64,000 bases of DNA, from NCBI RefSeq assembly GCF_017357245.1, contig NZ_CP071612.1, forward strand, positions 2,979,001 through 3,043,000, written 5' to 3'. This document shows positions 8,118-20,895 of this stretch, one piece after another. The first letter of the stretch is position 1. Each line of letters opens with the position of its first letter. Position numbers and translations under genes: made by a program. Origin of the DNA: Rhizobium bangladeshense (GTDB lineage: Bacteria; Pseudomonadota; Alphaproteobacteria; Rhizobiales; Rhizobiaceae). Below the pieces are notes generated by a model. It did no database searches and was not told the origin of the DNA. It saw nothing but the letters and a program-made list of their open reading frames with translations.

Positions 8118-8816
8118 TCAGGCCGCGGTCGCCATGTGGGTCGACGCCGAAAGCCTGACCGGCAGCTTGCGCATGATCTCCTCGGCAAAACAGGTGGCGT
8201 TCTCGCGCGCCTTGTCGAGATTGCTGACACGCGTGGGGTCCATGGTCTGCAGCGTGCCGCCACAGTCGAAGATGTCGCGGAAGGCCGAGCGTTCGATGAT
8301 CGCCGTATCCAGCACCGGCACATGCCGTTCGCTCAGGAGCGATTTGACGAGCTGCAGCGCCCGGGTCGTCACCATTGAGTTGACGCGGGTCAGCACCACC
8401 GAATGACCGATCCTGATGCCGGCCTTCTCGTCCAGATACTGCAGAAGTTCGAGCACCTGCGCGCCGCCGCGTGCATCCATCGCACAGCCTTGGATCGGGA
8501 TCAGCACGTGGTCGGAGAGGCCGACGGCGGTGGCGAGCAGAGGATTTCGCGCGCCCGGCAGGTCGACAATGAAATAGTCGGTATTATGCTTGTTCTCGCT
8601 GATATGCTGCGGCAGCGAGGCGGTGGTGACGAAATCGATCACAGAGATATTGGGCACATGACCAGAGATCTCGTGCCAGTGCGTAATCCAGTGTTGCGGA
8701 TCGGCGTCAAGAATGGTGACGCGATAGCCCTTGCGGGCAAGCTCAGTCGCGAGCAGGAGAACAGCGGTCGTCTTGCCGGCGCCGCCCTTGGTATTTGCGA
8801 ATGTAATCACTGGCAT
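8118..8816 (-). CDS. orphan ParA/MinD-type ATPase
   Basis: A 232-residue deviant-Walker ATPase: 'ITFANTKGGAGKTTAVLLLA' at the N-terminus (KGGxGKT), 'ILDADPQHW' (switch I/A' region) and 'YFIVDLPGARNPLLATAV' (Walker B). There is no ParB, parS-like repeat or replication gene nearby, so a plasmid-partition role is unlikely. Orphan ParAs position proteins such as chemoreceptors or act in other spatial roles. It is convergent with ssuB. The start at 8816 gives the usual 'MPVITFANTKGG'. Confidence 0.85.
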   Translation of the reverse strand: MPVITFANTKGGAGKTTAVLLLATELARKGYRVTILDADPQHWITHWHEISGHVPNISVIDFVTTASLPQHISENKHNTDYFIVDLPGARNPLLATAVGLSDHVLIPIQGCAMDARGGAQVLELLQYLDEKAGIRIGHSVVLTRVNSMVTTRALQLVKSLLSERHVPVLDTAIIERSAFRDIFDCGGTLQTMDPTRVSNLDKARENATCFAEEIMRKLPVRLSASTHMATAA

Positions 8817-8980
8817 GTTCGGTCCTCGGGAGGAAAATGGCACGAGCCGGCATCGCTCTTTTGCGCACTGTCAGAGCATCATGCGGTTAAGCTATCCTTT
8901 ACAATCATGGTTAACAAATTCCGAACGCGCCCGCCCAAATTGCAGCCTGTACTTTTCATATTCCGAAAATTGGGGACGCC

Positions 8981-9020
8981 GAAAAAGAAGAAAAAGCCCG
9001 GAAAGCCGAGCTTTCCGGGC
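8981..9020 (-). terminator. rho-independent terminator of the amine-catabolism operon
   Basis: A perfect 10-bp stem (8996-9005 with 9011-9020, loop CCGAG). On the minus strand it is followed by a T-rich run (TTTTTCTTCTTTTTC). It lies 26 bases after the stop of the alcohol dehydrogenase gene, the last gene of the leftward operon. Confidence 0.8.
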
Positions 9021-9046
9021 CAATCCGCAGGTTCGCTCTCAAGGCC

Positions 9047-10201
9047 TCAGAAACAATCCCTGAAAAGCGCCTTGGTATTTTCGAGCGTCATCGCGACAGG
9101 ATTGCCGCCGGCGCTCGGATCTTCGATCGCCATGGCCGACAATTCGTCGATACGGTCGGGGGCGATTCCCATCGCCGTCAGCGTCTCCGGCACTCCGAGA
9201 TCGGAACGGAGCTTCAGCACATAGTCATAGAAGCCGTCGAAACCGCCCGAAATGCCGAGATAGGCCGCCGCGCGGCTGATCTTCTCCTCGATTGCCGCAC
9301 GGTTGAAACGCAGCACCGCCGGCATGACAACCGCGTTGGTCATGCCGTGATGGGTGTTATAGACGGCGCCGATTGGATGGGACAAGGCGTGGATTGCGCC
9401 GAGCCCCTTCTGGAAGGCGACCGCGCCCATGGCAGCAGCAGACATCATGTTGGCGCGAGCTTCGAGATCGGTGCCTTCCCGATAGGCGCGCGGCAGGAAT
9501 TCCTTGACGAGCCGCATGCCTTCGAGCGCGATGCCGGCTGACATCGGATGATAGAAGGGCGAGGAATAGGCTTCCAGGCAATGCGCGAAAGCGTCCATGC
9601 CGGTGCCGGCGGTAATGATCTTCGGCATCCCGACCGTCAGTTCCGGATCGGAGATGACGACGCCCGGCAGGAACTTCGGGTGGAAGATGATCTTCTTCAC
9701 ATGCGTTTCGGAATTGGTAATGACGCTGGCGCGCCCGACTTCCGAACCGGTGCCGGCCGTCGTCGGTACGGCGACGATCGGCGCGATGCCCTCGACGCTG
9801 GCGCGCGTCCACCAGTCGCCGATATCCTCGAAATCCCAGACCGGCCGCGATTGGCCAACCATGAAGGCGACGCACTTGCCGAGATCGAGGCCGGAGCCGC
9901 CGCCGAAGGCGACGACGCCGTCATGGCCGCCGTCCTTGAAGGCCTTGACGCCGGCCTCGAGGTTCTTCTCATTCGGGTTCGGATCGACGTCAGCGAAGAT
10001 CGCCCGGCCAAGACCGGCATCTTCGAGGATATCGAGCGCGTTCTTGGTGATCGCCATCGCGGCGAGGCCGCGGTCGGTGACAAGCAGCGGCTTCTTCATG
10101 CCGAGGCTCTTGCAGGCGTCGGCCAGTTCCTTGATCCGGCCCCGGCCGAGCTTGACCGATGTCGGGTAGCTCCAGTTTGCGGTGATGTTGCTGCTGCTCA
10201 T
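9047..10201 (-). CDS. iron-containing (group III) alcohol dehydrogenase
   Basis: A 384-residue NAD(P)-dependent alcohol dehydrogenase of the Fe-ADH family. Seen: nucleotide-binding 'FGGGSGLDLGKCVAFM' (about 100-115) and metal-ligand regions 'TGMDAFAHCLEAYSS' and 'HALSHPIGAVYNTHHGMTNA'. It overlaps the aldehyde dehydrogenase gene by 4 bases (ATGA), so the two are translationally coupled. With that enzyme it would oxidise an alcohol group to a carboxylate. In this operon the substrate may be a gamma-glutamylated amino alcohol, which is an inference from gene context. Confidence 0.92.
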   Translation of the reverse strand: MSSSNITANWSYPTSVKLGRGRIKELADACKSLGMKKPLLVTDRGLAAMAITKNALDILEDAGLGRAIFADVDPNPNEKNLEAGVKAFKDGGHDGVVAFGGGSGLDLGKCVAFMVGQSRPVWDFEDIGDWWTRASVEGIAPIVAVPTTAGTGSEVGRASVITNSETHVKKIIFHPKFLPGVVISDPELTVGMPKIITAGTGMDAFAHCLEAYSSPFYHPMSAGIALEGMRLVKEFLPRAYREGTDLEARANMMSAAAMGAVAFQKGLGAIHALSHPIGAVYNTHHGMTNAVVMPAVLRFNRAAIEEKISRAAAYLGISGGFDGFYDYVLKLRSDLGVPETLTAMGIAPDRIDELSAMAIEDPSAGGNPVAMTLENTKALFRDCF

Positions 10202-11583
10202 GCTGTCACTTTCTTCAGGTGGAAGGATTTCGGACGCGTCAGATTCTGGAAGCCGATGATCGACAGCGAGCCGCCGCGGCCGGTCTCCTTGACGCCGGTC
10301 CAGCAGAGCGCCGGATCGAGATAGTCCGCTCGGTTCATGAAAACGGTGCCGGTTTCGATGTCGCGGCCGAGACGCGCAGCCCGCTCGACATCCTTGGTCC
10401 AGAGCGAGGCCGTCAGCCCGTACTGGCTGTCGTTCATCAAAGCGAGAGCCTCCTCGTCGCTCTTCACCTTCATGATGCCGACTGCCGGACCGAAGGTCTC
10501 TTCACGCATGAAGGCCATGGAATGATCGACATCGACGAGGACCTGCGGTGCGAGATAGGCGCCGCCATCGTCCTGAGGGAAAAGCTTGGGATCGACAAGC
10601 GCCTTGGCGCCCTTGGAAACCGCATCGGCGATCTGCTCGCGCACCACCTTGGCGAAACGCTTGTTCGCCATCGGCCCAAGCGACGTCTCGGGATCGAGCG
10701 GATTGCCAAGCTTGTAGTTCGACACCCAGGCAACCGATTTCTCGACGAAGGCGTCGTAGAGCGATTCATGCACGTAGACGCGCTCGATGCCGCAGCAGCA
10801 CTGGCCGGAATTATAGGTGGCGCCATCCATCAGCGTGTCGACGGCCGCATCGAGATCGGCGTCTTCCATGACGTAACCCGGATCCTTGCCGCCGAGCTCG
10901 AGGCCGAGGCCGGTGAAGGTGCCGGCGGCGGCCCGCTCCATCGAGCGACCGCCTTCGACCGATCCGGTGAAATTGACGAAGTTGAAGCTGCCGGCAGCAA
11001 TTAGTGCCGACGTCGTTTCATGATCGAGAAAGACGTTCTGGAATACGTCGTCCGGAACACCCGCCTCGACGAAGGCCTGTACCAGCCGTTCGCCGACGAG
11101 CAAGGTCTGCGAGGCGTGTTTCAGAACGACCGTATTGCCGGCCATCAGCGCCGGCGCGATCGTATTGATCGCCGTCATATAGGGATAGTTCCACGGCGCG
11201 ACAACGAAGACGACGCCATGCGCTTCGCGCTCGATGCGGCGTTCGAAACGGTCGCTTTCTTCGACGACCAGCGGGGCGAGCGCGTCAGCCGCGATCGAGG
11301 CGACATAGTTGGAGCGCTCGTTGAAGCCCCTGTATTCGCCGCCGTACTTCACCGGCCGCCCCATCTGCCAGGCAAGCTCCGGCACGACGACGTCCGACAT
11401 CTCGTTCAGCCGCGCAACTCCTTTCAGCACGAGCTGAACGCGCTCTTCAAGCGGCCGCCTCGCCCAGGCCTTCTGCGCCTTGCGGGCGCGCGCCACCACA
11501 TCCTTGGCGGCATCGAGCGAAAGCGCCGGACGCTCCGCGTAAACCGATCCGTCGACCGGTGAAATGCATTGGATCATTGCCAT
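10198..11583 (-). CDS. aldehyde dehydrogenase
   Basis: A 461-residue NAD(P)-dependent aldehyde dehydrogenase. Seen: 'VVAPWNYPYMTAINTIAPAL', the general-base Glu in 'LGLELGGKDPGYV' (about 229) and the catalytic Cys in 'NSGQCCCGIERVYV' (about 262). The protein is shorter than the usual 480-500 residues, as in succinate-semialdehyde-type members. It starts after an AGGAAA site; an RIME-like repeat of about 150 bases separates it from the upstream glutamine-synthetase-like gene. Likely role: second oxidation step of the pathway encoded here, passing on from the Fe-ADH. Confidence 0.93.
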   Translation of the reverse strand: MAMIQCISPVDGSVYAERPALSLDAAKDVVARARKAQKAWARRPLEERVQLVLKGVARLNEMSDVVVPELAWQMGRPVKYGGEYRGFNERSNYVASIAADALAPLVVEESDRFERRIEREAHGVVFVVAPWNYPYMTAINTIAPALMAGNTVVLKHASQTLLVGERLVQAFVEAGVPDDVFQNVFLDHETTSALIAAGSFNFVNFTGSVEGGRSMERAAAGTFTGLGLELGGKDPGYVMEDADLDAAVDTLMDGATYNSGQCCCGIERVYVHESLYDAFVEKSVAWVSNYKLGNPLDPETSLGPMANKRFAKVVREQIADAVSKGAKALVDPKLFPQDDGGAYLAPQVLVDVDHSMAFMREETFGPAVGIMKVKSDEEALALMNDSQYGLTASLWTKDVERAARLGRDIETGTVFMNRADYLDPALCWTGVKETGRGGSLSIIGFQNLTRPKSFHLKKVTA

Positions 11584-11622
11584 GATCGATTTCCTGTCCT
11601 CGTATCATTTCAAAATTGGTGG

Positions 11623-11775
11623 GCGACAGCCCCTCATCCGCCTGCCGGCACCTTCTCCCCGCAAACGGGGCGAAGGGGATATGCCGCAACCTTTCGGTCC
11701 CCCCGCAACGTCTCGCATGGCAAGTCCCCTCTCCCCGTTTCTACGGGGAGAGGGTTAGGGTGAGGGGCAACCCCG
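11623..11775. repeat. RIME-like intergenic palindromic element, copy 1
   Basis: About 150 bases with two hairpins: CCTTCTCCCCG / CGGGGCGAAGG (11651-11676) and a perfect 12-bp stem (11727-11738 with 11743-11754). It shares 'CCCCTCATCCGCCTGCCGGC' and the TGAGG end with the element at 25.4 kb. RIME elements are known intergenic mosaic repeats of rhizobia. It sits inside the leftward operon, between the aldehyde dehydrogenase and ligase genes, and could pause transcription or stabilise upstream mRNA. Confidence 0.7.
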
Positions 11776-11786
11776 CGAAATGCCTA

Positions 11787-13154
11787 TTAAGCTCTTTCGA
11801 AACCGCGCGCCACTTCCCAATCGGTGATGCGGCGGTCGTATTCCTCTTGCTCCCATTCGGCAGCGCGGGTGTAGTGGTCGATCACCTCGTCGCCGAAGGC
11901 TTTGCGCAGCATCGCCGATTCCGTCATCGCAATCGCCGCCGAACGCAGCGTGCGCGGGATCTCACGAATGTCCTTGCCGCCATAGGCGTCGCCGACGAAG
12001 GGAGCCTCGAGCTCCATCTTGTTCTCGATCCCGTCGATACCGGCGGCGAGCAGCGCTGCGAATGCGAGATAGGGATTGAGATCGGAGCCGCCGACGCGGC
12101 ATTCGATACGGATGCCCTTCGTCTCCTCGCCGCAAAGGCGATAGCCGGCGGTACGGTTGTCCTTGCTCCAGATCGCCTTGGTCGGAGCAAAAGTGCCAGC
12201 CATGAAGCGCTTGTAGGAATTGATGTAAGGCGCCAGGAAATAGGTGATCTCGCTCGCATGGGCGAGAAGTCCGGCAACGTAATTGTGCATCAGCGGCGAC
12301 ATGCCGTATTTGCCGGTATGGTCGAAGAATAGCGGCTTTTCCTCAAGGCTCCACAGCGACTGGTGGATATGAGAGGAGCTACCAGCGGCATTGTAGTTCC
12401 ACTTGGCAAGGAAAGTGATGGCTTTGCCCTTCGACCAAGCGATCTCCTTGCAGCCATTCTTTATGATCGCATGCCGATCGGCCATGGCGAGCGCGTCGGC
12501 GTAGCGGACGTTGATCTCCTCCTGTCCGGCCGAGGCCTCGCCCTTGGAGTTTTCGACCGGAATGCCGGCACCCTGCAGGCCGGTGCGGATCGCCCGCATC
12601 ACCTCTTCCTCCTTGGTGGTCTGGAAGATGTGGTAGTCCTCGTTATAGGCGCTGGCGAGCTTCAGATTGCGGTAGCCCGAAGCATGCGCCGCCTCATAAC
12701 TCTGGTCGAACAGGAAGAATTCGAGCTCCGAGGCCATATAGGCCTTCATGCCCATGTCTTCGAGACGCTTCACCTGCTTCTTCAGAATCGCGCGTGGCGA
12801 ATGGGCGACCTCTTCATGGGTGTGATGGTCGAGCACGTCGCAGAGCACGAGCGCGGTACCCTCGAGCCAGGGGATGCGGCGCAGTGTCGAAAGATCCGGC
12901 TTCATCGTATAGTCGCCGTATCCCTTCTCCCAGCTCGTCGCCTTGTAGCCGGAGACGGTTTCCATCTCTATGTCAGTCGCCTGCAGGTAGTTGCAGCTGT
13001 GCGTTTCCTTCCAGGCGCTTTCGACGAAATATTCAGCCTGGAAGCGCTTGCCCATCAGCCGGCCCTGCATGTCCACCTGGCAGGCGAGAACCGTATCGAT
13101 GCGCCCTTCGGCAACATCCTTCCTGAGATCGTCGATTGTATAGCTGCTGCTCAT
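11787..13154 (-). CDS. glutamine-synthetase-like ligase (gamma-glutamylamide synthetase type)
   Basis: A 455-residue member of the glutamine synthetase superfamily, of the type that joins glutamate to amines (PuuA, IpuC, GlnA3/GlnA4). Seen: beta-grasp N-domain ('LACQVDMQGRLMGKRF', about 20-35), metal/glutamate region 'MASELEFFLFDQSYE', ATP-site 'AAGSSSHIHQSLW' and the C-terminal 'RIECRVGGSDLNPYLAFAAL'. The start at 13154 is supported by an AGGCGGAT site; an upstream extension is unlike the family. Next to a permease and oxidising enzymes, amine catabolism is more likely than ammonia assimilation. The amine is not known. Confidence 0.88.
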   Translation of the reverse strand: MSSSYTIDDLRKDVAEGRIDTVLACQVDMQGRLMGKRFQAEYFVESAWKETHSCNYLQATDIEMETVSGYKATSWEKGYGDYTMKPDLSTLRRIPWLEGTALVLCDVLDHHTHEEVAHSPRAILKKQVKRLEDMGMKAYMASELEFFLFDQSYEAAHASGYRNLKLASAYNEDYHIFQTTKEEEVMRAIRTGLQGAGIPVENSKGEASAGQEEINVRYADALAMADRHAIIKNGCKEIAWSKGKAITFLAKWNYNAAGSSSHIHQSLWSLEEKPLFFDHTGKYGMSPLMHNYVAGLLAHASEITYFLAPYINSYKRFMAGTFAPTKAIWSKDNRTAGYRLCGEETKGIRIECRVGGSDLNPYLAFAALLAAGIDGIENKMELEAPFVGDAYGGKDIREIPRTLRSAAIAMTESAMLRKAFGDEVIDHYTRAAEWEQEEYDRRITDWEVARGFERA

Positions 13155-13298
13155 GATTGATCCGCCTGAAATAGGGATTGAAAAATCGAGGCAACGAAAC
13201 TGCATACGCTCGGCCTGGTATCGCGGCCCGATGCCTTTTCGTTGAACCGGTGGCGGGGCCGCAGGATGCGGCCCCGCCAATCGAGGGAAGTTCGTTTC

Positions 13299-14849
13299 TC
13301 AGGCCTCGCCGACAGCCGCCTCGGCGGCCGCGATCTCAGCCTGACGCTTGGCAATGGCGTCGCCGATCGGCGGACCTTTGAAGCGGCGGTTCTCGAATGC
13401 AAACCACACGATAGCGGTCAACACTAGGAAACCGACGGTAATTTCAAGCGCCCAGTCGTTCGGCGGCTGAATGCCGATGTAGAAGATCAGCGCCATTGAG
13501 AGGATAGCGAGGACGGCAACCACCCTGTACAGCCCCACTCCCATATTCCATGGCCCCATTGTCGGCCATTTCGCCGTTCCGATCGAAACGAGGCCGAGAG
13601 CGATGGGCACGACGAAGGACAGGAACAGGAAGATGACCGTGCACGACACCACGATCGAATAGGCCGGCGTCCCGGCAATGGTTATCGCCGAGGTAAACCA
13701 GACAAAGAGGACGGCGAGGATGGCGCCCGTCCAAATGGCCGCGACCGGCGTGCGGAAGCTCGGGCTGACCTTGGAGAGGGTCGAGGATGCCGGAAGACCC
13801 TTGTCACGCGAGAAAGCGAAGATCATCCGCGAAACCGAGGTGACGGTCGCAAGCCCGCACAGGAACTGAGCGACGAATATCAGCACGTAGAGAATGCTTT
13901 TGATCGTCGGGTTCACCTGCGACTCCATCGCCCAGAAGAACACGTTCCAGCCCTGCTTTGCAGCGTCGTCCATGTTCGGGATCATGAGCACGAAAGCACA
14001 CAACATGAGATAGCCGAAGAGCGCCGACCAGAGGACTGAGGAAACCATGCCACGGGGCACGGAAACGGCGGCCTTCACTGTCTCCTCCGACGTATGCGCC
14101 GAGGCGTCGTAGCCGGTGATCGTATAGACTGGCAACAGCAAGCCGAGCAGGAATGCCATGCCGGTGGAGACGGTCACCGGCCAGACCAGCGATGCACCTT
14201 CGGTGCCCGTATAGTTGGCGAACGTGAAGAGCCGTGAAATATCCCAACTCGGCGCGGCCGCAAGGCAGACGATCGTCAGGAGGATCGCCGTTGCGAAGAT
14301 CAGATATCCCGAGAAGTCGGTAAGCTTGGCGGTCAGGCCGATGCCGAAATGGTTGATCCCCGCCTGCAGCGCTGTGATGATCGCCACAAACACGACACGA
14401 TGAAGAAGCGTGTCCTCAATACCGAATTGCGGCCCGAAGGCACCGAAGAAGAAATAAAAGGTGCCGACATTGATGGCGCCGAGCACGGTGACGAGCCCGA
14501 GCAGGTTGAGCCAAGCCGACAGCCAGCCGGTAAAGCGGTTTCCGAGGATTGAGCCCCAGTGATAGAGCCCCCCTGCTGTCGGATAGGCGGAGCCGATCTG
14601 CGCGAGGCCTAATGCGAAGATGAACGAAATGAGGCAGCCGAGCGGCCAGCCAATGCCAATCGCCGCTCCGCCAGCTCCGGCTGTTGCCTGCCCGAGCGAA
14701 TTGATGCCGCCGGAAAGAATGCAGATGATCGAAAACGAGATTGCAAAATTCGAGAACGAGCTCATTCGCCGTTCGAGTTCCTGGGCATAGCCCATGGAAT
14801 GCAGGATGTGAACATCCTGCTTCTTGTCCAATTCGGTATAATCCGACAT
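13299..14849 (-). CDS. APC-family amine/amino-acid permease
   Basis: A 516-residue inner-membrane transporter of the APC superfamily, amino acid-choline (GABA permease-like) branch. About twelve hydrophobic segments are visible, with the family's first-helix region 'FAISFSIICILSGGINSLG' and 'GWPLGCLISFIFALGLAQI' following. It is cotranscribed with the downstream ligase (145-base gap) and preceded by the amidohydrolase gene (115 bases). It probably imports the amine or amino-acid-like substrate of the pathway. An AGGGGGA ribosome site precedes the ATG. Confidence 0.88.
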   Translation of the reverse strand: MSDYTELDKKQDVHILHSMGYAQELERRMSSFSNFAISFSIICILSGGINSLGQATAGAGGAAIGIGWPLGCLISFIFALGLAQIGSAYPTAGGLYHWGSILGNRFTGWLSAWLNLLGLVTVLGAINVGTFYFFFGAFGPQFGIEDTLLHRVVFVAIITALQAGINHFGIGLTAKLTDFSGYLIFATAILLTIVCLAAAPSWDISRLFTFANYTGTEGASLVWPVTVSTGMAFLLGLLLPVYTITGYDASAHTSEETVKAAVSVPRGMVSSVLWSALFGYLMLCAFVLMIPNMDDAAKQGWNVFFWAMESQVNPTIKSILYVLIFVAQFLCGLATVTSVSRMIFAFSRDKGLPASSTLSKVSPSFRTPVAAIWTGAILAVLFVWFTSAITIAGTPAYSIVVSCTVIFLFLSFVVPIALGLVSIGTAKWPTMGPWNMGVGLYRVVAVLAILSMALIFYIGIQPPNDWALEITVGFLVLTAIVWFAFENRRFKGPPIGDAIAKRQAEIAAAEAAVGEA

Positions 14850-14964
14850 GACTTCCCCCTGTTGACGATCGGCCGCGGGATTGCGACCGGTTCATTGCCA
14901 ATAGTCCGCAGCATTTCGCCTTCGGACGTCCGCAGTTAGACTGCTCCCTCGGGTCTTCTTTTTA

Positions 14965-15744
14965 TCAGGCGTCTAGGCTCTGCTGGAGCAGCCCTTTTAT
15001 ATAATCGGCCACGACCCCTTGGCCGACATCGTCTGCGATGAGGTCATTGCGGACCTCGATCATCACGTTGCGCAAGCCGTTCGAAAGCCCGTGCAGGATC
15101 AGCGTGTGGGTCACGCCGTCCTCAGGCCCGTAGGGCTGATTGCGTTCGGTTCTATAAAGCGGCGCTTTGGCCGCAGCATCAAGCATCCGATCGGCGAGCC
15201 AGCTATCCTCGTCATGCAATATGCCGAGTTCGACCAGCCGTTCACGCCCGTGATAGACCGGCGTGAAACTGTGCATCGTCACGATGACGCTGTCCTGTCC
15301 CTTTGCCCGGCGATCGCGGATCAGCCCGCGAATGGCGTCATGAAAGGGCACGTAGAGCGCGTCTCTGCGCGCAAGACGTTCTTCGAAAGTCAAATCCTTG
15401 TTGCCGGGAATGGCATAGATCTCACTTGTTTCAGGCATGGCCCCCGGAGAGCTCGGCGGCCGGTTGCAGTCGTAGATCAGCCGGGAAAACCGCTGGTATA
15501 CGAGTGTCGCATCGAGGCCTTCTGATATGCCGCGGGCGACCGAGAGAGCGCCGGGATCCCAGGCGATGTGGCTCGACAGCGCTTCTTTGGAAAGGCCGAG
15601 ATCGCCGAACTTGGCAGGAAGCCTGTTTGATGCATGCTCACAGATGAGCATCACGGGGCTCCGGCCATCAACGCGCTCAATCCCGACGCAATCGCCGTCC
15701 GCTTCGCTGAGGATGTTCGGCCGGGCCAGCACCAAAGCCGCCAC
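14965..15744 (-). CDS. N-formylglutamate amidohydrolase-family protein
   Basis: A 259-residue member of the N-formylglutamate amidohydrolase family (PF05013). Seen: 'VMLICEHASNRLPAKFGDLG' with the metal-binding His, 'HIAWDPGALSVARGISEGLD', 'YDCNRPP' and 'VIVTMHSFTP'. The start is GTG at 15744 with an AGGGATAGGA ribosome site. It is the first gene of the leftward operon. No histidine-degradation genes are nearby, so rather than N-formylglutamate it may hydrolyse a gamma-glutamyl or N-acyl amide made in this pathway; that is inference. Confidence 0.85.
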   Translation of the reverse strand: MAALVLARPNILSEADGDCVGIERVDGRSPVMLICEHASNRLPAKFGDLGLSKEALSSHIAWDPGALSVARGISEGLDATLVYQRFSRLIYDCNRPPSSPGAMPETSEIYAIPGNKDLTFEERLARRDALYVPFHDAIRGLIRDRRAKGQDSVIVTMHSFTPVYHGRERLVELGILHDEDSWLADRMLDAAAKAPLYRTERNQPYGPEDGVTHTLILHGLSNGLRNVMIEVRNDLIADDVGQGVVADYIKGLLQQSLDA

Positions 15745-15810
15745 TCCTATCCCTTAATAAAATCTTTAAGAAAAGAATTCTTCAGCTTTTGCCGGGTGTC
15801 AAGCAGTCTC

Positions 15811-15826
15811 TGAAAATTTCTTTTCA
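15811..15826. promoter_or_regulatory. candidate RpiR operator
   Basis: A 16-bp dyad with perfect 6-bp arms (TGAAAA-TTTC-TTTTCA) in the divergent region between the amidohydrolase and rpiR-type genes. Inverted GAAA/TTTC arms are common for RpiR-family operators. A possible sigma70 promoter for the regulator lies next to it: TTGACA 15836-15841, 17 bases, GTTAAC 15859-15864. Confidence 0.45.
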
Positions 15827-15910
15827 TGACAGTAGTTGACATTGATTGTGACAGCGTTGTTAACTTTGCGTGGGAAAGTGGCGCTAGACCATCCCGGGGA
15901 GCATAGCTAG

Positions 15911-16783
15911 GTGACAACTGCGTCGAAGACGGTTTCGGACGTCATACACTCGCATCTGAGCGTGTTGACACGTGCCGAAAAGCAGTTGGCGGAAAGCCTG
16001 CTCGACAATTATCCGGTTTCCGGCCTTGGCAGCATCACCACCATCGCGGAGAATGCTGGCGTCTCCACGCCGACTGTCGTGCGGATGGTGCAGAAGCTGG
16101 GCTTCAAGGGTTATCCGGATTTTCAGGCGCGCCTGCATCAGGAGGTCGAGGCAACGATCTCCAACCCGATCGCCAAGCATGACCGCTGGGCGCAAAATGC
16201 GCCGGGCACCCATATCCTCAACCGCTTTGCCGATGCCATCATGGGCAATCTACGCCAGACGCTGACCGATCTCGACACCGCCACTTTCGACAGCGTCGCC
16301 TCGCTGTTGTCCGACCGCAAGCGCGGCCTTTATTTCGTCGGCGGCCGCATAACCGGAGCGCTGGCCGAGTACTTCTTCACTCACATGCAGGTCATCCGGC
16401 CGGCAACGACGCTGCTGTCGTCCAATTCCAGCAGTTGGCCGCAATATGCCCTCAACATGAATGCCGGCGACATCCTTATCATCTTCGACATCCGACGTTA
16501 CGAACAGGAAATGGTGAGCCTTGCCACCGCCGCCCGCAAGCGCGGGGCCGAAATCGTCCTATTCACCGACCAATGGGGCTCGCCTGCCGCCAAACTCGCG
16601 CGGCACGCTTTCCGGGTCCGCATCGAAGCGCCTTCGGCCTGGGATTCGTCGGTCGTCACCCTTTTCATCGTCGAGGCTCTGATCGAAGCCGTTCAGAACT
16701 CCACCTGGGACGAGACGAAGGAACGCATGAAGACGCTGGAAGGGCTATTCGAGCAGACCAAGCTTTTCCGCAAACTCGGTTAG
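15911..16783 (+). CDS. RpiR/MurR-family transcription regulator
   Basis: A 290-residue regulator. The N-terminal HTH_6 domain (about 5-80) includes 'TTIAENAGVSTPTVVRMVQK', and the SIS sugar-isomerase fold (about 125-255) includes 'GLYFVGGRITGALAEYFFTH' and 'IIFDIRRYEQEMVSLATAARK'. RpiR proteins sense phosphosugars or other small metabolites through the SIS domain. The start is GTG at 15911 with GGGGAG upstream. It is divergent from the amine-catabolism operon and upstream of an ABC importer, so it probably controls one or both. Confidence 0.9.
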   Translation: MTTASKTVSDVIHSHLSVLTRAEKQLAESLLDNYPVSGLGSITTIAENAGVSTPTVVRMVQKLGFKGYPDFQARLHQEVEATISNPIAKHDRWAQNAPGTHILNRFADAIMGNLRQTLTDLDTATFDSVASLLSDRKRGLYFVGGRITGALAEYFFTHMQVIRPATTLLSSNSSSWPQYALNMNAGDILIIFDIRRYEQEMVSLATAARKRGAEIVLFTDQWGSPAAKLARHAFRVRIEAPSAWDSSVVTLFIVEALIEAVQNSTWDETKERMKTLEGLFEQTKLFRKLG

Positions 16784-16968: not shown

Positions 16969-18072
16969 GTGATCTCTAACATTTCTCGACTTCTGTCGCT
17001 TTCTACTGCGATGATCGTGGCTTCGACCGCGATTGCCGCCGCAGAACCGAGCGCAGAACTTATCGCCGCCGCCAAGAAGGAAGGCACGTTGACCACCATC
17101 GCTCTTCCGCACAGCTGGTGCGGCTATGGCGATGTCATCGCCGGCTTCAAGGCGAAGTACGGTATCGAAGTCAACGAGTTGAATCCGGATGCCAGCTCGG
17201 GTGACGAAATCGAAGCCATCAAGGCCAACAAGGGCAACACCGGCCCGCAGGCCCCCGATGTCATCGACGTCGGCCTCTCCTTCGGCCCGTCCGCCAAGAA
17301 AGATGGCCTGATCCAGCCTTACAAGGTTTCTACCTGGGATTCGATCCCCGATAGCGCCAAGGATGCCGAAGGCTACTGGTACGGCGACTATTACGGCGTT
17401 CTCTCGTTCCTCGTGAACAAGGATCTGGTCAAGGAATCGCCGGCAGATTGGGCCGATCTCAAGAAGAGCGACTATGCGAACAGCGTAGCACTCGCAGGCG
17501 ATCCGCGCAGCGCCAACCAGGCTGTTCAGGGCGTTTATGCGGCTGGTCTTTCCGCATCCGGCGGTGACGCTGCCAAGGCAGGCGAAGAGGGCCTGAAGTT
17601 CTTTGCCGAGCTGAACAAGACCGGCAACTTCGTGCCTGTCGTCGGCAAGGCTGCCCCCTTCGCACAAGGCTCCACGCCGATCATCATCGCCTGGGACTAC
17701 AATGCGCTTTCCTGGGGTGAAAGCCTGAAGGGCAATCCTCCTTTCGAAGTCGTCGTTCCGAAGACGGGCGTCGTCGCCGGCGTCTACGTGCAGGCCATTT
17801 CGGCTTTCGCTCCGCACCCGAACGCCGCCAAGCTCTGGATGGAATATCTCTATTCCGACGAAGGTCAGCTCGGCTGGCTGAAGGGTTATTGCCACCCGAT
17901 CCGCTTCAACGATCTTGCCAAAAACAACAAGATCCCGAAGGAACTGCTCGACAAGCTGCCGCCGGCAGAGGCCTATGAAAAGGCCGTCTTCCCGACGCTC
18001 GAAGAGCAGGCCGCCGGCAAGGAGACCATCACCAAGAACTGGGATAGCGTCGTCGGCGCCAACGTTCAGTAA
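16969..18072 (+). CDS. ABC transporter periplasmic binding protein (PotD/AfuA-type)
   Basis: A 367-residue extracellular solute-binding protein with a signal peptide (residues 1-24, ending 'STAIAAA'). It carries 'LIAAAKKEGTLTTIALPHSW' and 'YGDYYGVLSFLVNKDLVKE', typical of the iron/polyamine/phosphonate-type family. The start is GTG at 16969 behind AAGGAGA. It heads a binding protein-permease-permease-ATPase operon. The ligand is not determined; polyamine, 2-aminoethylphosphonate or another amine would fit the neighbouring catabolic operon. Confidence 0.85.
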   Translation: MISNISRLLSLSTAMIVASTAIAAAEPSAELIAAAKKEGTLTTIALPHSWCGYGDVIAGFKAKYGIEVNELNPDASSGDEIEAIKANKGNTGPQAPDVIDVGLSFGPSAKKDGLIQPYKVSTWDSIPDSAKDAEGYWYGDYYGVLSFLVNKDLVKESPADWADLKKSDYANSVALAGDPRSANQAVQGVYAAGLSASGGDAAKAGEEGLKFFAELNKTGNFVPVVGKAAPFAQGSTPIIIAWDYNALSWGESLKGNPPFEVVVPKTGVVAGVYVQAISAFAPHPNAAKLWMEYLYSDEGQLGWLKGYCHPIRFNDLAKNNKIPKELLDKLPPAEAYEKAVFPTLEEQAAGKETITKNWDSVVGANVQ

Positions 18073-18117: not shown

Positions 18118-18144
18118 CTCCGACGCCCCAGGATGAGCTTTTCT

Positions 18145-19038
18145 ATGAGTACCGTTTCAACGCCGATGGTGAGCAGCGCTCCCTTGATCAGCAAAGACCG
18201 CGTGATCGACTGGCTGGGCATTACACCCTTCATTATTTTTTCGCTGCTGTTCCTGATCATCCCCACGCTCTATCTCGTAGTGGGCGCATTCCTGACGCCG
18301 GACGGCAATTTTACGCTGAAGAATATCGGGGATCTCTTTACTCCATCGATCATGAGCGCTTACTGGATCAGTATCCGCGTCTCGGTGGCGTCGGCACTAG
18401 GCGGCGCGCTGATCGGTTTCTTCCTTGCCTGGGCTGTCGTGCTCGGCGGCCTGCCCGCCTCGGTGCGTTCTGCGCTTCTCACCTTCTCCGGCGTTGCCTC
18501 GAATTTTGCAGGCGTGCCGCTCGCCTTCGCGTTCCTCGCCACGCTTGGCCGCACGGGCCTCGTGACGGTTTTCCTGCGGGAATGGTTCGGCTTCAATCTC
18601 TACGGCACAGGCTTCAACCTGCTGTCCTTCTTCGGCCTTACGATCACTTACATGTATTTCCAGATCCCGCTGATGGTGCTGATCCTGACGCCGGCGCTTG
18701 ATGGCATGAAGAAAGAATGGCGCGAAGCCTCGCAGATCCTCGGCGCTACCAATCGCCAATATTGGACGATGGTTGCCTTGCCGATCCTTTGGCCGAGCCT
18801 GCTCGGTACGACGCTGCTGCTCTTCGCCAACGCCTTCGGCGCTATCGCCACCGCCTTTGCGCTGACCGGCAGCTCGCTGAACATCGTACCGATCCTGCTC
18901 TACGCGCAGATCCGCGGCGACGTTCTGCACAATCCCAACCTCGGTTACGCCATCGCCCTCGGCATGATCGTCATCACAGGCGTGTCCAACATCCTTTACC
19001 TCATGCTGCGCATGCGCGCCGAGAGGTGGCAAAAATGA
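18145..19038 (+). CDS. ABC transporter permease 1 (PotB-type)
   Basis: A 297-residue inner-membrane permease with about six hydrophobic segments. The EAA-loop region 'EWREASQILGATNRQYWTMV' lies about residues 190-209. Two in-frame ATGs compete: 18133, which has no room for its own ribosome site, and 18145, which has AGGATGAG about 11 bases upstream and is preferred. Its stop overlaps the next start (ATGA, 19035-19038). Confidence 0.85.
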   Translation: MSTVSTPMVSSAPLISKDRVIDWLGITPFIIFSLLFLIIPTLYLVVGAFLTPDGNFTLKNIGDLFTPSIMSAYWISIRVSVASALGGALIGFFLAWAVVLGGLPASVRSALLTFSGVASNFAGVPLAFAFLATLGRTGLVTVFLREWFGFNLYGTGFNLLSFFGLTITYMYFQIPLMVLILTPALDGMKKEWREASQILGATNRQYWTMVALPILWPSLLGTTLLLFANAFGAIATAFALTGSSLNIVPILLYAQIRGDVLHNPNLGYAIALGMIVITGVSNILYLMLRMRAERWQK

Positions 19039-19823
19039 AAACCCAACGCTTGGGAGCCTGGATCGCCATCATTCTCGGCGCATCCTATTTCATCATCCCG
19101 CTGATCGGCACCATCGAGTTTTCGCTGCGCATGCGCCGCGGTGAATACAGCCTGGATGCCTATACATCAGTCTTCTCGGATATTCAGTTCCGCGAAACCT
19201 TCGGCTACTCCATGCTCATGGCGCTTCTGACCATCGTCTTCGGCATGCTGCTCGTGGTGCCGACGGCCTATTGGGTGCGGCTGCGCCTGCCGCAGATGCG
19301 TCCAGTCGTCGAATTCATCACGCTGATGCCGCTCGTCATTCCGGCAATCGTCATCGTCTTCGGCTACCTCAGAATGTATAATTCCTCGTCCTATCTGCCG
19401 CTGACGGGTTCGACGACCGGGACCAACGCCCTGCTGGTCTTCTCCTACATCACGCTGTCACTGCCCTATATGTACCGCGCCGTCGATACCGCCATGCGCG
19501 CCATCGATGTTCGCACACTGACGGAGGCGGCCGAAAGCCTCGGCGCCCGCTGGACGACCATCATGTTCCGCTGCATCTTCCCGAACGTGATGAGCGGTGT
19601 GCTGTCAGGCGCCTTCATTACGCTCGCGATCGTAATGGGCGAATTCACCTTCGCCGCCCTGCTCAACCGCCCGGCCTTCGGCCCGTATTTGCAGCTCGTC
19701 GGCGCGAACAAGGCTTACGAGCCTTCGGCGCTCGCGGTCATTGCTTTCTCGATCACTTGGCTCAGCATGGGCCTGCTCAACCTCGTTTCCCGCTTCGGCA
19801 AAGCTCGCCCGGCAAAGGCTTAA
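19035..19823 (+). CDS. ABC transporter permease 2 (PotC-type)
   Basis: A 262-residue permease with six or so membrane segments. The EAA-loop region reads 'DVRTLTEAAESLGARWTTIM' (about 157-176). The start is the ATG overlapping the previous stop; the much longer open frame upstream is the other reading frame of permease 1. It pairs with permease 1 to form the membrane channel of this importer. Confidence 0.88.
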   Translation: MKTQRLGAWIAIILGASYFIIPLIGTIEFSLRMRRGEYSLDAYTSVFSDIQFRETFGYSMLMALLTIVFGMLLVVPTAYWVRLRLPQMRPVVEFITLMPLVIPAIVIVFGYLRMYNSSSYLPLTGSTTGTNALLVFSYITLSLPYMYRAVDTAMRAIDVRTLTEAAESLGARWTTIMFRCIFPNVMSGVLSGAFITLAIVMGEFTFAALLNRPAFGPYLQLVGANKAYEPSALAVIAFSITWLSMGLLNLVSRFGKARPAKA

Positions 19824-19833
19824 GGTAACCGGC

Positions 19834-20895
19834 ATGTCCTTTCTCACACTGAACAACATTCAGAAATCCTTCGGCCCGGTTCAGGTCGTCAAGAACTTCA
19901 ACATGAACATCGAGAAGGGCGAATTCATCTCCTTCCTCGGACCGTCCGGCTGCGGCAAGACGACCGTCCTGCGCATGATCGCTGGCTTCGAAACCCCGAC
20001 CGGCGGCACGCTGACGATCAACGGCAAGGACCAGAGCGCGCTGAAGCCGAACCAGCGCAATATCGGCATGGTCTTCCAAGCTTATGCTCTCTTCCCTAAC
20101 ATGTCCGTGCGCGACAATGTCGCCTTCGGCCTCAAGGTCGCCGGCGCGCCGAAGCCCGAAATCGACGCCCGCGTCAAGGAAATGCTAGGCCTGATCAAGC
20201 TCGATCATCTGGCCGACCGATACCCCTATCAGTTGTCGGGCGGCCAGCAGCAGCGCGTCGCGCTTGCCCGTGCGCTCGCCGTAAAACCGCAGGTGCTCTT
20301 GCTCGATGAACCGCTCTCTGCGCTCGATGCCAAGATCCGCGTGTCGTTGCGCGAGGAAATCCGCCAGATCCAACAACAGCTCGGCATCACCACGGTTTTC
20401 GTCACCCACGATCAGGAAGAAGCCCTGTCGATCTCCGATCGCATTGTCGTCATGAACGCCGGCAAGGCGGATCAGATCGGCTCGCCCTTCGAGATCTACA
20501 ACAAACCGGCCACGCGCTTCGTCGCCTCCTTCGTCGGCACGCTGAACCTGATCGAAGCCAAGGTCATCGATCCCGACATCAACCTCATCCAGATCGGCGA
20601 TCAGAAGATCACACTGAAGCAGTCGGTCGCAGCCCACAAGGCCGGAGAAACCATCTCGCTGGCGCTGCGCCCGGAAGCAGGCTCTCTCTCCGACACCGCC
20701 AGAAGCGACACCGCCTTGACTGGTCAGGTCGTGTCCGCCCACTTCCTCGGCTCGGTCATCCGCACCCGCATGAATGTTGGCGGCAACGTCATCTCCTTCG
20801 ACATGTTCAACAGCCCCGGCGTCACCCCGCCGCAGGCCGGAGAAACCGTGACGCTCCGTTTCATGGCAGCCGACCTGCTGATCATCCGCGATTGA
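19834..20895 (+). CDS. ABC transporter ATPase (PotA-type)
   Basis: A 353-residue ATPase. Seen: Walker A 'GPSGCGKTT', Q-loop 'VFQAYALFPNM', signature 'LSGGQQQRVALARAL', Walker B 'VLLLDEPLSALDA', switch 'FVTHDQEEAL', and a C-terminal TOBE-type regulatory domain (about 275-350). The start at 19834 gives 'MSFLTLNNIQKSFG'; the longer frame runs into the permease gene. It is the last gene of the operon, closed by a terminator 25 bases after the stop. Confidence 0.9.
   Translation: MSFLTLNNIQKSFGPVQVVKNFNMNIEKGEFISFLGPSGCGKTTVLRMIAGFETPTGGTLTINGKDQSALKPNQRNIGMVFQAYALFPNMSVRDNVAFGLKVAGAPKPEIDARVKEMLGLIKLDHLADRYPYQLSGGQQQRVALARALAVKPQVLLLDEPLSALDAKIRVSLREEIRQIQQQLGITTVFVTHDQEEALSISDRIVVMNAGKADQIGSPFEIYNKPATRFVASFVGTLNLIEAKVIDPDINLIQIGDQKITLKQSVAAHKAGETISLALRPEAGSLSDTARSDTALTGQVVSAHFLGSVIRTRMNVGGNVISFDMFNSPGVTPPQAGETVTLRFMAADLLIIRD

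Follow-up and report, generated by a model that had tools for sequence, protein, structure and literature searches.

A predicted gamma-glutamylation-type ethanolamine utilisation operon in Rhizobium bangladeshense with an apparently exchangeable uptake protein

Introduction

The closest described counterpart of the locus reported here is an operon of Phaeobacter sp. MED193 (MED193_10021-10056) which encodes an RpiR regulator, a gamma-glutamylglycine amidohydrolase, the transporter EtoVWX, an ethanolamine gamma-glutamylase, an aldehyde dehydrogenase and a gamma-glutamylethanolamide dehydrogenase, and whose proteins increase on phosphorylethanolamine (PMC10132767). The same source gives a Kd of 7.9 uM for EtoX and ethanolamine, treats Csal_0678 of Chromohalobacter salexigens as an ethanolamine-binding EtoX homologue, and calls the MED193 genes closely related to ones demonstrated in C. 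salexigens and Agrobacterium tumefaciens C58 (PMC10132767). Table 2 of a 2022 review lists PF00120, PF00465, PF00171 and PF05013 for the ethanolamine route, with the C. salexigens steps termed 'proposed' (PMC9397018), and a third source describes a Streptomyces version and treats the pathway of C. salexigens as predicted in silico (PMC6529630). Here we describe an operon of Rhizobium bangladeshense that combines these four families, lying within a 64,000-nucleotide stretch (positions 2,979,001 to 3,043,000 of contig NZ_CP071612.1, assembly GCF_017357245.1) that was analysed as a whole and is called the window below. The pathway of C. salexigens (Csal_0678/0679) and Agrobacterium C58 was reportedly described by Vetting et al.

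Results

An operon resembling the described ethanolamine route

We consider the window operon very probably an ordinary, well-conserved gamma-glutamylation-type operon for the use of ethanolamine; each of its reactions, and the substrate, is what we infer for this organism. A sequence-only reading of the same DNA had described a leftward array of amidohydrolase, permease, ligase, aldehyde dehydrogenase and iron-type alcohol dehydrogenase, divergent from an RpiR gene, and all six genes are present at that place. On the minus strand the order of transcription is amidohydrolase, APC permease, ligase, aldehyde dehydrogenase (ALDH), iron-type alcohol dehydrogenase (Fe-ADH) and hairpin, with RpiR divergent:

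8995..9021, minus strand, intrinsic terminator-like hairpin (12 pairs, loop of 3, T-rich tail) at the operon end
9047..10201, minus strand, Fe-ADH (PF00465/PF25137), predicted gamma-glutamylethanolamide dehydrogenase
10198..11583, minus strand, ALDH (PF00171), predicted gamma-glutamyl-aldehyde dehydrogenase
11619..11779, no strand assigned, palindromic repeat that is dispersed in the genome, here placed between ligase and ALDH
11787..13154, minus strand, glutamine synthetase (GS)-like ligase (PF00120; matches to 5dm3 and 11zs), predicted ethanolamine gamma-glutamylase; start set at an ATG, the mechanical open reading frame beginning at TTG 13280
13299..14849, minus strand, TIGR00907-like APC permease in the slot position, predicted ethanolamine permease
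14965..15744, minus strand, amidohydrolase of the N-formylglutamate amidohydrolase (FGase) fold (PF05013), predicted gamma-glutamylglycine amidohydrolase
15911..16783, plus strand, RpiR-family regulator (HTH_6 and SIS domains), divergent

The four families of an Eto/GGP-type operon, PF00120, PF00465, PF00171 and PF05013, thus lie in one cluster, and the gene order including RpiR is that of MED193. The EtoVWX TRAP transporter is absent from the window, where the APC permease fills the slot between amidohydrolase and ligase; the enzyme route does not require EtoVWX.

In the proposed scheme, the permease would import ethanolamine, which the ligase would couple to glutamate with ATP, yielding gamma-glutamylethanolamide. 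The Fe-ADH would then convert the hydroxyl group of this intermediate to an aldehyde, the ALDH would turn the aldehyde into gamma-glutamylglycine, and the amidohydrolase would release glutamate and glycine, with RpiR probably controlling the divergent promoters. We favour ethanolamine as substrate because the gene order is MED193-like, the ligase Csal_0679-like and the amidohydrolase Atu2144-like; because the slots of sister operons hold Csal_0678-like TRAP transporters or permeases close to TIGR00908; and because the ligase lacks the GYEAP glutamate kept by the GlnA paralogues while the genome has no match to EutB. An EutBC route was rejected for want of that EutB match (EutC was not searched).

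The sequence-only reading had already proposed a ligase, an Fe-ADH in place of an amine oxidase, an ALDH, a last step of the FGase fold and ethanolamine as a likely substrate, a scheme that orthology and gene order probably bear out. It had also hinted that the combination might be new to rhizobia; this does not hold, since the literature calls the MED193 operon closely related to genes of Agrobacterium C58, a member of the Rhizobiaceae (PMC10132767), and tabulates the same Pfam set (PMC9397018). The literature thus already contains the enzyme route, also for the Rhizobiaceae, with the extent of experimental proof somewhat doubtful. Among the titles and abstract openings surveyed, we met no ethanolamine operon of Rhizobium.

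Identity of the enzymes

Against the PDB, the ligase matched 11zs (E 2.7e-202, 676 bits) and 5dm3 (E 9.8e-189, 631 bits), the next chain reaching 182 bits, and it falls in the Csal_0679 clade among solved structures: 5dm3 is titled Csal_0679 of Chromohalobacter salexigens, and 11zs glutamine synthetase of Brucella melitensis. The flap glutamate of the GYEAP motif is important for ammonia use. In an alignment of 21 clade sequences (the window and 20 hand-picked loci) the flap reads GTFAP or GSFAP in 20 and ATWAP in one, all without this glutamate; the window ligase has GTFAP. Two GlnA paralogues elsewhere in the genome retain GYEAP and exceed the TIGR00653 cut-off, and a further paralogue, L006, carries GSFAP. 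In a search of plasmids, the best 40 of 684 records carry the names glutamine synthetase, glnA or glnT, in one case gamma-glutamylputrescine synthetase, or no name. As a side observation, 11zs, a 2026 cryo-EM structure, sits in the ethanolamine-ligase clade and also lacks the GYEAP flap glutamate; judged by its sequence, the name 'glutamine synthetase' is probably wrong for it.

The amidohydrolase has 2odf (Atu2144; E 5.5e-96) as its sole PDB match at E<=0.001. Its FGase-fold motif residues are present, the ALDH has ELGG and GQCC motifs, and the Fe-ADH motifs are intact, including D203, H207, H271/H275 and H284/H285, which we take to be metal-ligand residues; the roles of the motif residues in all three enzymes are likewise assumed. 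The best NCBIfam model for the Fe-ADH is 4-hydroxybutyrate dehydrogenase (351.7 bits, cut-off 500), and for the ALDH no NCBIfam family exceeded its cut-off among the best 25 of 44. Structure predictions from only 4 close sequences for a TRAP binding protein and 17 for the ligase reached mean pLDDT values of 41 and 46, and their fits were not used as evidence.

Conservation of the locus

To set the operon in context, three samples of ligase loci were compared: 80 sister loci, taken by a scan of genome contigs from at least 593 relatives (598 pattern matches); 30 class-wide loci besides the window; and 37 phylum-wide loci. Slot types were assigned from the best BLASTP match among the chosen queries, and gene presence was scored with window-derived queries. 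FGase, RpiR, ALDH and Fe-ADH surround the ligase in 79 of the 80 sister loci, the exception (L044) being a 4.9-kb contig, and RpiR is divergent in 79 of 80. An Fe-ADH lies beside the ligase in 79/80 sister, 23/30 class-wide and 36/37 phylum-wide loci, and the full set was found in 25/37 phylum-wide loci. The gene arrangement is not due to chance.

Several findings weigh against the ethanolamine reading. Class-wide, the full set of FGase, RpiR, ALDH and Fe-ADH was found with window-derived queries in only 7 of 30 loci, and therefore the ligase occurs in other contexts too; in 7 of the 30, ALDH and Fe-ADH are both missing. Some of the class-wide and phylum-wide misses may reflect divergence or contig ends. 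The ethanolamine permease model TIGR00908 (cut-off 381.75) is absent from the three model matches of the window permease. Finally, the sources, all second-hand, disagree on the proof: one calls the genes of C. salexigens and C58 'demonstrated' (PMC10132767), the others call the C. salexigens route in silico predicted (PMC6529630) or 'proposed' (PMC9397018), and for this reason we slightly lowered our confidence. We also observed loci with the ligase near an Fe-ADH and, by the queries used, no ALDH within 4.5 kb downstream (L093, L101, L105, L108, L110, L114, L115, L116, L120, L150, L151, L156 and L157).

Alternative substrates

The operon might mainly serve another short amino alcohol, such as alaninol or 1-amino-2-propanol, with ethanolamine secondary, which we consider unlikely. 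The enzymes would in principle tolerate a methyl group, the slot transporter has been swapped for a family of unproven substrate, and the ligand of 4xf5, a Csal_0678 structure, is presumably alaninol-like. Against this, sister operons carry Csal_0678-like or Eat-type transporters, and EtoX binds ethanolamine (Kd 7.9 uM), though no other amino alcohols are among the analogues that the passage concerned names (PMC10132767).

A polyamine or alkylamine route of the PuuA or IpuC kind, with the Fe-ADH acting on something else, fares considerably worse and is very improbable. The ligase, ALDH and permease are compatible with a Puu-like scheme, and the ligase shares an FAP-type flap with paralogue L006; however, the PuuA model (NF045547) scores 194.9 bits against a cut-off of 650, no amine oxidase is found among the operon genes, and the Fe-ADH keeps company with the ligase in most loci of the three samples.

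An ordinary glutamine synthetase with an N-formylglutamate deformylase and unrelated dehydrogenases, as the automatic family names PF00120 and PF05013 would have it, can practically be discounted, as GlnA (TIGR00653; 261.3 bits, cut-off 429; flap GTFAP, not GYEAP), GlnT (234 of 470) and HutG (TIGR02017; 19.8 of 278.75) were all rejected as identities and the two GlnA paralogues lie elsewhere in the genome.

Exchange of the transporter

A feature of the predicted ethanolamine operon that the sequence-only reading had missed is that its transporter is the variable part. Among the 80 sister loci, the slot holds an APC permease in 73, a TRAP transporter in five and an Eat-type permease in two. The one TRAP binding protein searched against the PDB (L076) matched 4uab/4xf5 (Csal_0678) at E 6e-161, with the next match at 1.1e-17, and its counterparts in L064, L073 and L084 share 86-95% identity with it; the locus number of Csal_0679 adjoins Csal_0678. 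The Eat-type permeases of L086 and L079 score 363.8 and 373.8 bits, just under the TIGR00908 ethanolamine-permease cut-off given above.

Slot types were mapped onto a tree of ligases whose 66 rows remained after thinning the 113 loci (of 148) that have amidohydrolase, ALDH and Fe-ADH; the count covers three transporter types and leaves out one transporter-less row. On this tree the slot switched type at least nine times, and the starred branches alone require five changes for APC, four for TRAP and four for Eat-type. The 'APC' class pools proteins 48-100% identical to the window permease, and the proteins of L065 and L134, together with a second L136 copy, branch off deeply on their own. From these gene trees and neighbourhoods we conclude that the uptake protein is repeatedly exchanged in an otherwise fixed operon.

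The window permease scores 204.7 bits with TIGR00907 (cut-off 598.3), and those of its relatives that have a name, among the matches listed, go by no more than 'amino acid permease' or 'transporter'. At a threshold of E<=1e-180, its family is present in 20 of 249 genomes of the order. It stands directly upstream of the ligase in 15 of these. In three more (L179, L180 and L181) the gene after it belongs to a second GS class (~32% alike), with ALDH and Fe-ADH coming next, L180 and L181 retaining the full operon layout and L179 showing no FGase; a GS-family ligase therefore adjoins the permease in 18 of the 20. In the remaining two, the permease is cut by a contig end with amidohydrolase and RpiR present (L183), or lies near neither ligase class (L182). 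Class-wide, the permease was found in two of 289 genomes, the window's own and L184, where it precedes the second GS class and ALDH and Fe-ADH are oppositely oriented; in L130 it lies behind the Fe-ADH rather than in the slot. Because of the slot position and the linkage to ligases, this TIGR00907-like APC family is predicted to be an ethanolamine permease.

Comparison with relatives suggests a recent exchange. The window permease shares 98.6% identity with its R. aethiopicum HBR26 (L009) counterpart and 84-89% with those of L061, L078 (Ciceribacter), L083 and L085. The R. bangladeshense L007 permease is 78% identical, and the ligases of the two loci are 98% identical. At the DNA level, identity to L007 is 91% in the ligase and 78% in the permease, rising again at about 14700, inside the 5' end of the permease gene, a profile consistent with the permease, and nothing else, having been replaced relative to L007. 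Proteins 95% identical to the window's occur in R. ruizarguesonis and R. leguminosarum, among the matches listed, and the slot permease of R. ruizarguesonis L016 is 77% identical; both forms may segregate within species.

Transcription and regulation

The ALDH and Fe-ADH genes overlap by four bases, and the remaining intergenic gaps measure 115, 144 and 203 bases. With none of these gaps holding a flagged terminator on the minus strand, a single transcript across the operon is plausible on layout. The 203-base ligase-ALDH gap, the widest, is filled by the dispersed repeat, for which 40 of 61 candidates were scored, giving at least 35 genome matches (E<=1e-5) when the repeat itself is counted. 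As to the 'clear terminator' of the sequence-only reading, a hairpin of 12 pairs, with a tail rich in T, does lie just behind the Fe-ADH, but such sites are not above chance in the region (13, against 10.7 +/- 3.5 in shuffles) and its folding is modest (z = -1.63; 12 of 200 shuffles equally good), and it was for this reason judged on place and stem length. Past it lies a ParA-like ATPase gene (8118-8843, minus strand) that adjoins the operon in many related loci.

An RpiR operator was sought, and we claim none. A loose TGAAW..WTTCA palindrome occurs in 48 of 114 intergenic regions, a count without a control; no exact repeat with 7-base arms common to the ten regions listed was found; and 9-mers from around AAGAATTCTT turn up in 21-25 of the 54 regions left after thinning, with relatedness uncontrolled.

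A linked ABC importer

Behind RpiR lies an ABC unit of four genes:

16969..18072, plus strand, solute-binding protein (SBP_bac_6), possible second uptake system for the pathway
18133..19038, plus strand, ABC permease 1 (weak PF00528, 22 of 26.4 bits)
19035..19823, plus strand, ABC permease 2 (PF00528), inside the open reading frame 18717-19823, start chosen by hand
19834..20895, plus strand, PhnT2/PotA-like ABC ATPase (TIGR03265, 422.4 of 457.7 bits)

The best curated matches of the unit include 2-aminoethylphosphonate components, under cut-off, and the binding protein has weak PhnS-type similarity (58-60 bits, cut-offs 310-395). In 79 of the 80 sister loci (L007-L086) the binding protein is linked to the operon in divergent orientation, and in nine loci of the phylum sample (L132-L136, L139 and L141-L143), all of window family code f1, it is co-directional behind the Fe-ADH. 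In L125 the matches to amidohydrolase and ligase lie only some 200 bases apart, leaving the slot empty, and the ABC unit is the sole transporter found by the queries used. Speaking against a fixed role in the pathway, the binding protein is present in 49 of the 249 order genomes, 14 of which lack any ligase match at E<=1e-100, and the unit stands alone in 20 loci of the 49 genomes, where the binding protein is not next to the ligase; no conserved extra gene beside the four was found in those 20, except a two-component-like pair, named by eye, in four or five. From its linkage, the importer may be a second uptake route.

Discussion

The chances seem evenly balanced that the operon is a modular cassette. 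In this view, round conserved ALDH and Fe-ADH genes, swapping in place would affect not just uptake (by TRAP, Eat-type, and one or two more APC families) but the ligase as well (the two GS classes); the TIGR00907-like APC permeases would be a dedicated ethanolamine transporter family not yet so named; and the PhnS/PhnT-like ABC unit would serve as a second feeder, whose substrate may be ethanolamine or a head group containing it. Beyond enzymes of a known kind, the testable remainder consists of the permease family, the swapping of parts and the ABC importer linked to the operon; the analysis places a probable gamma-glutamyl ethanolamine route in Rhizobium and predicts a substrate for a vaguely named permease family. 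Ethanolamine is a common lipid building block released from membrane lipids, and the permease and ABC importer are therefore testable parts of rhizosphere nutrition.

Relation to known systems

Likened by its described gene order, the MED193 operon shares RpiR, amidohydrolase, transporter slot, ligase, ALDH and dehydrogenase in the same order as the window, and differs in having TRAP EtoVWX where the window has an APC permease. The Chromohalobacter and Agrobacterium C58 systems (Csal_0678/0679, Atu2144) share the same four Pfam families, a ligase resembling 5dm3 and an amidohydrolase resembling 2odf, with a TRAP transporter in Chromohalobacter. The Puu pathway uses a PuuB-type oxidase and has PuuD as its last step; PuuA/GGputSyn is, like the window ligase, a GS-fold gamma-glutamyl ligase, whereas the window has no PuuB-type oxidase, an FGase where Puu has PuuD, and a ligase far below the PuuA cut-off. 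The Streptomyces coelicolor GlnA4 pathway follows the same gamma-glutamylation logic, but its figure legend names a short-chain dehydrogenase where the window has an Fe-ADH, and the GlnA4 clusters of some species carry a gene annotated as an ethanolamine/amino acid permease, a likeness by annotation (PMC6529630).

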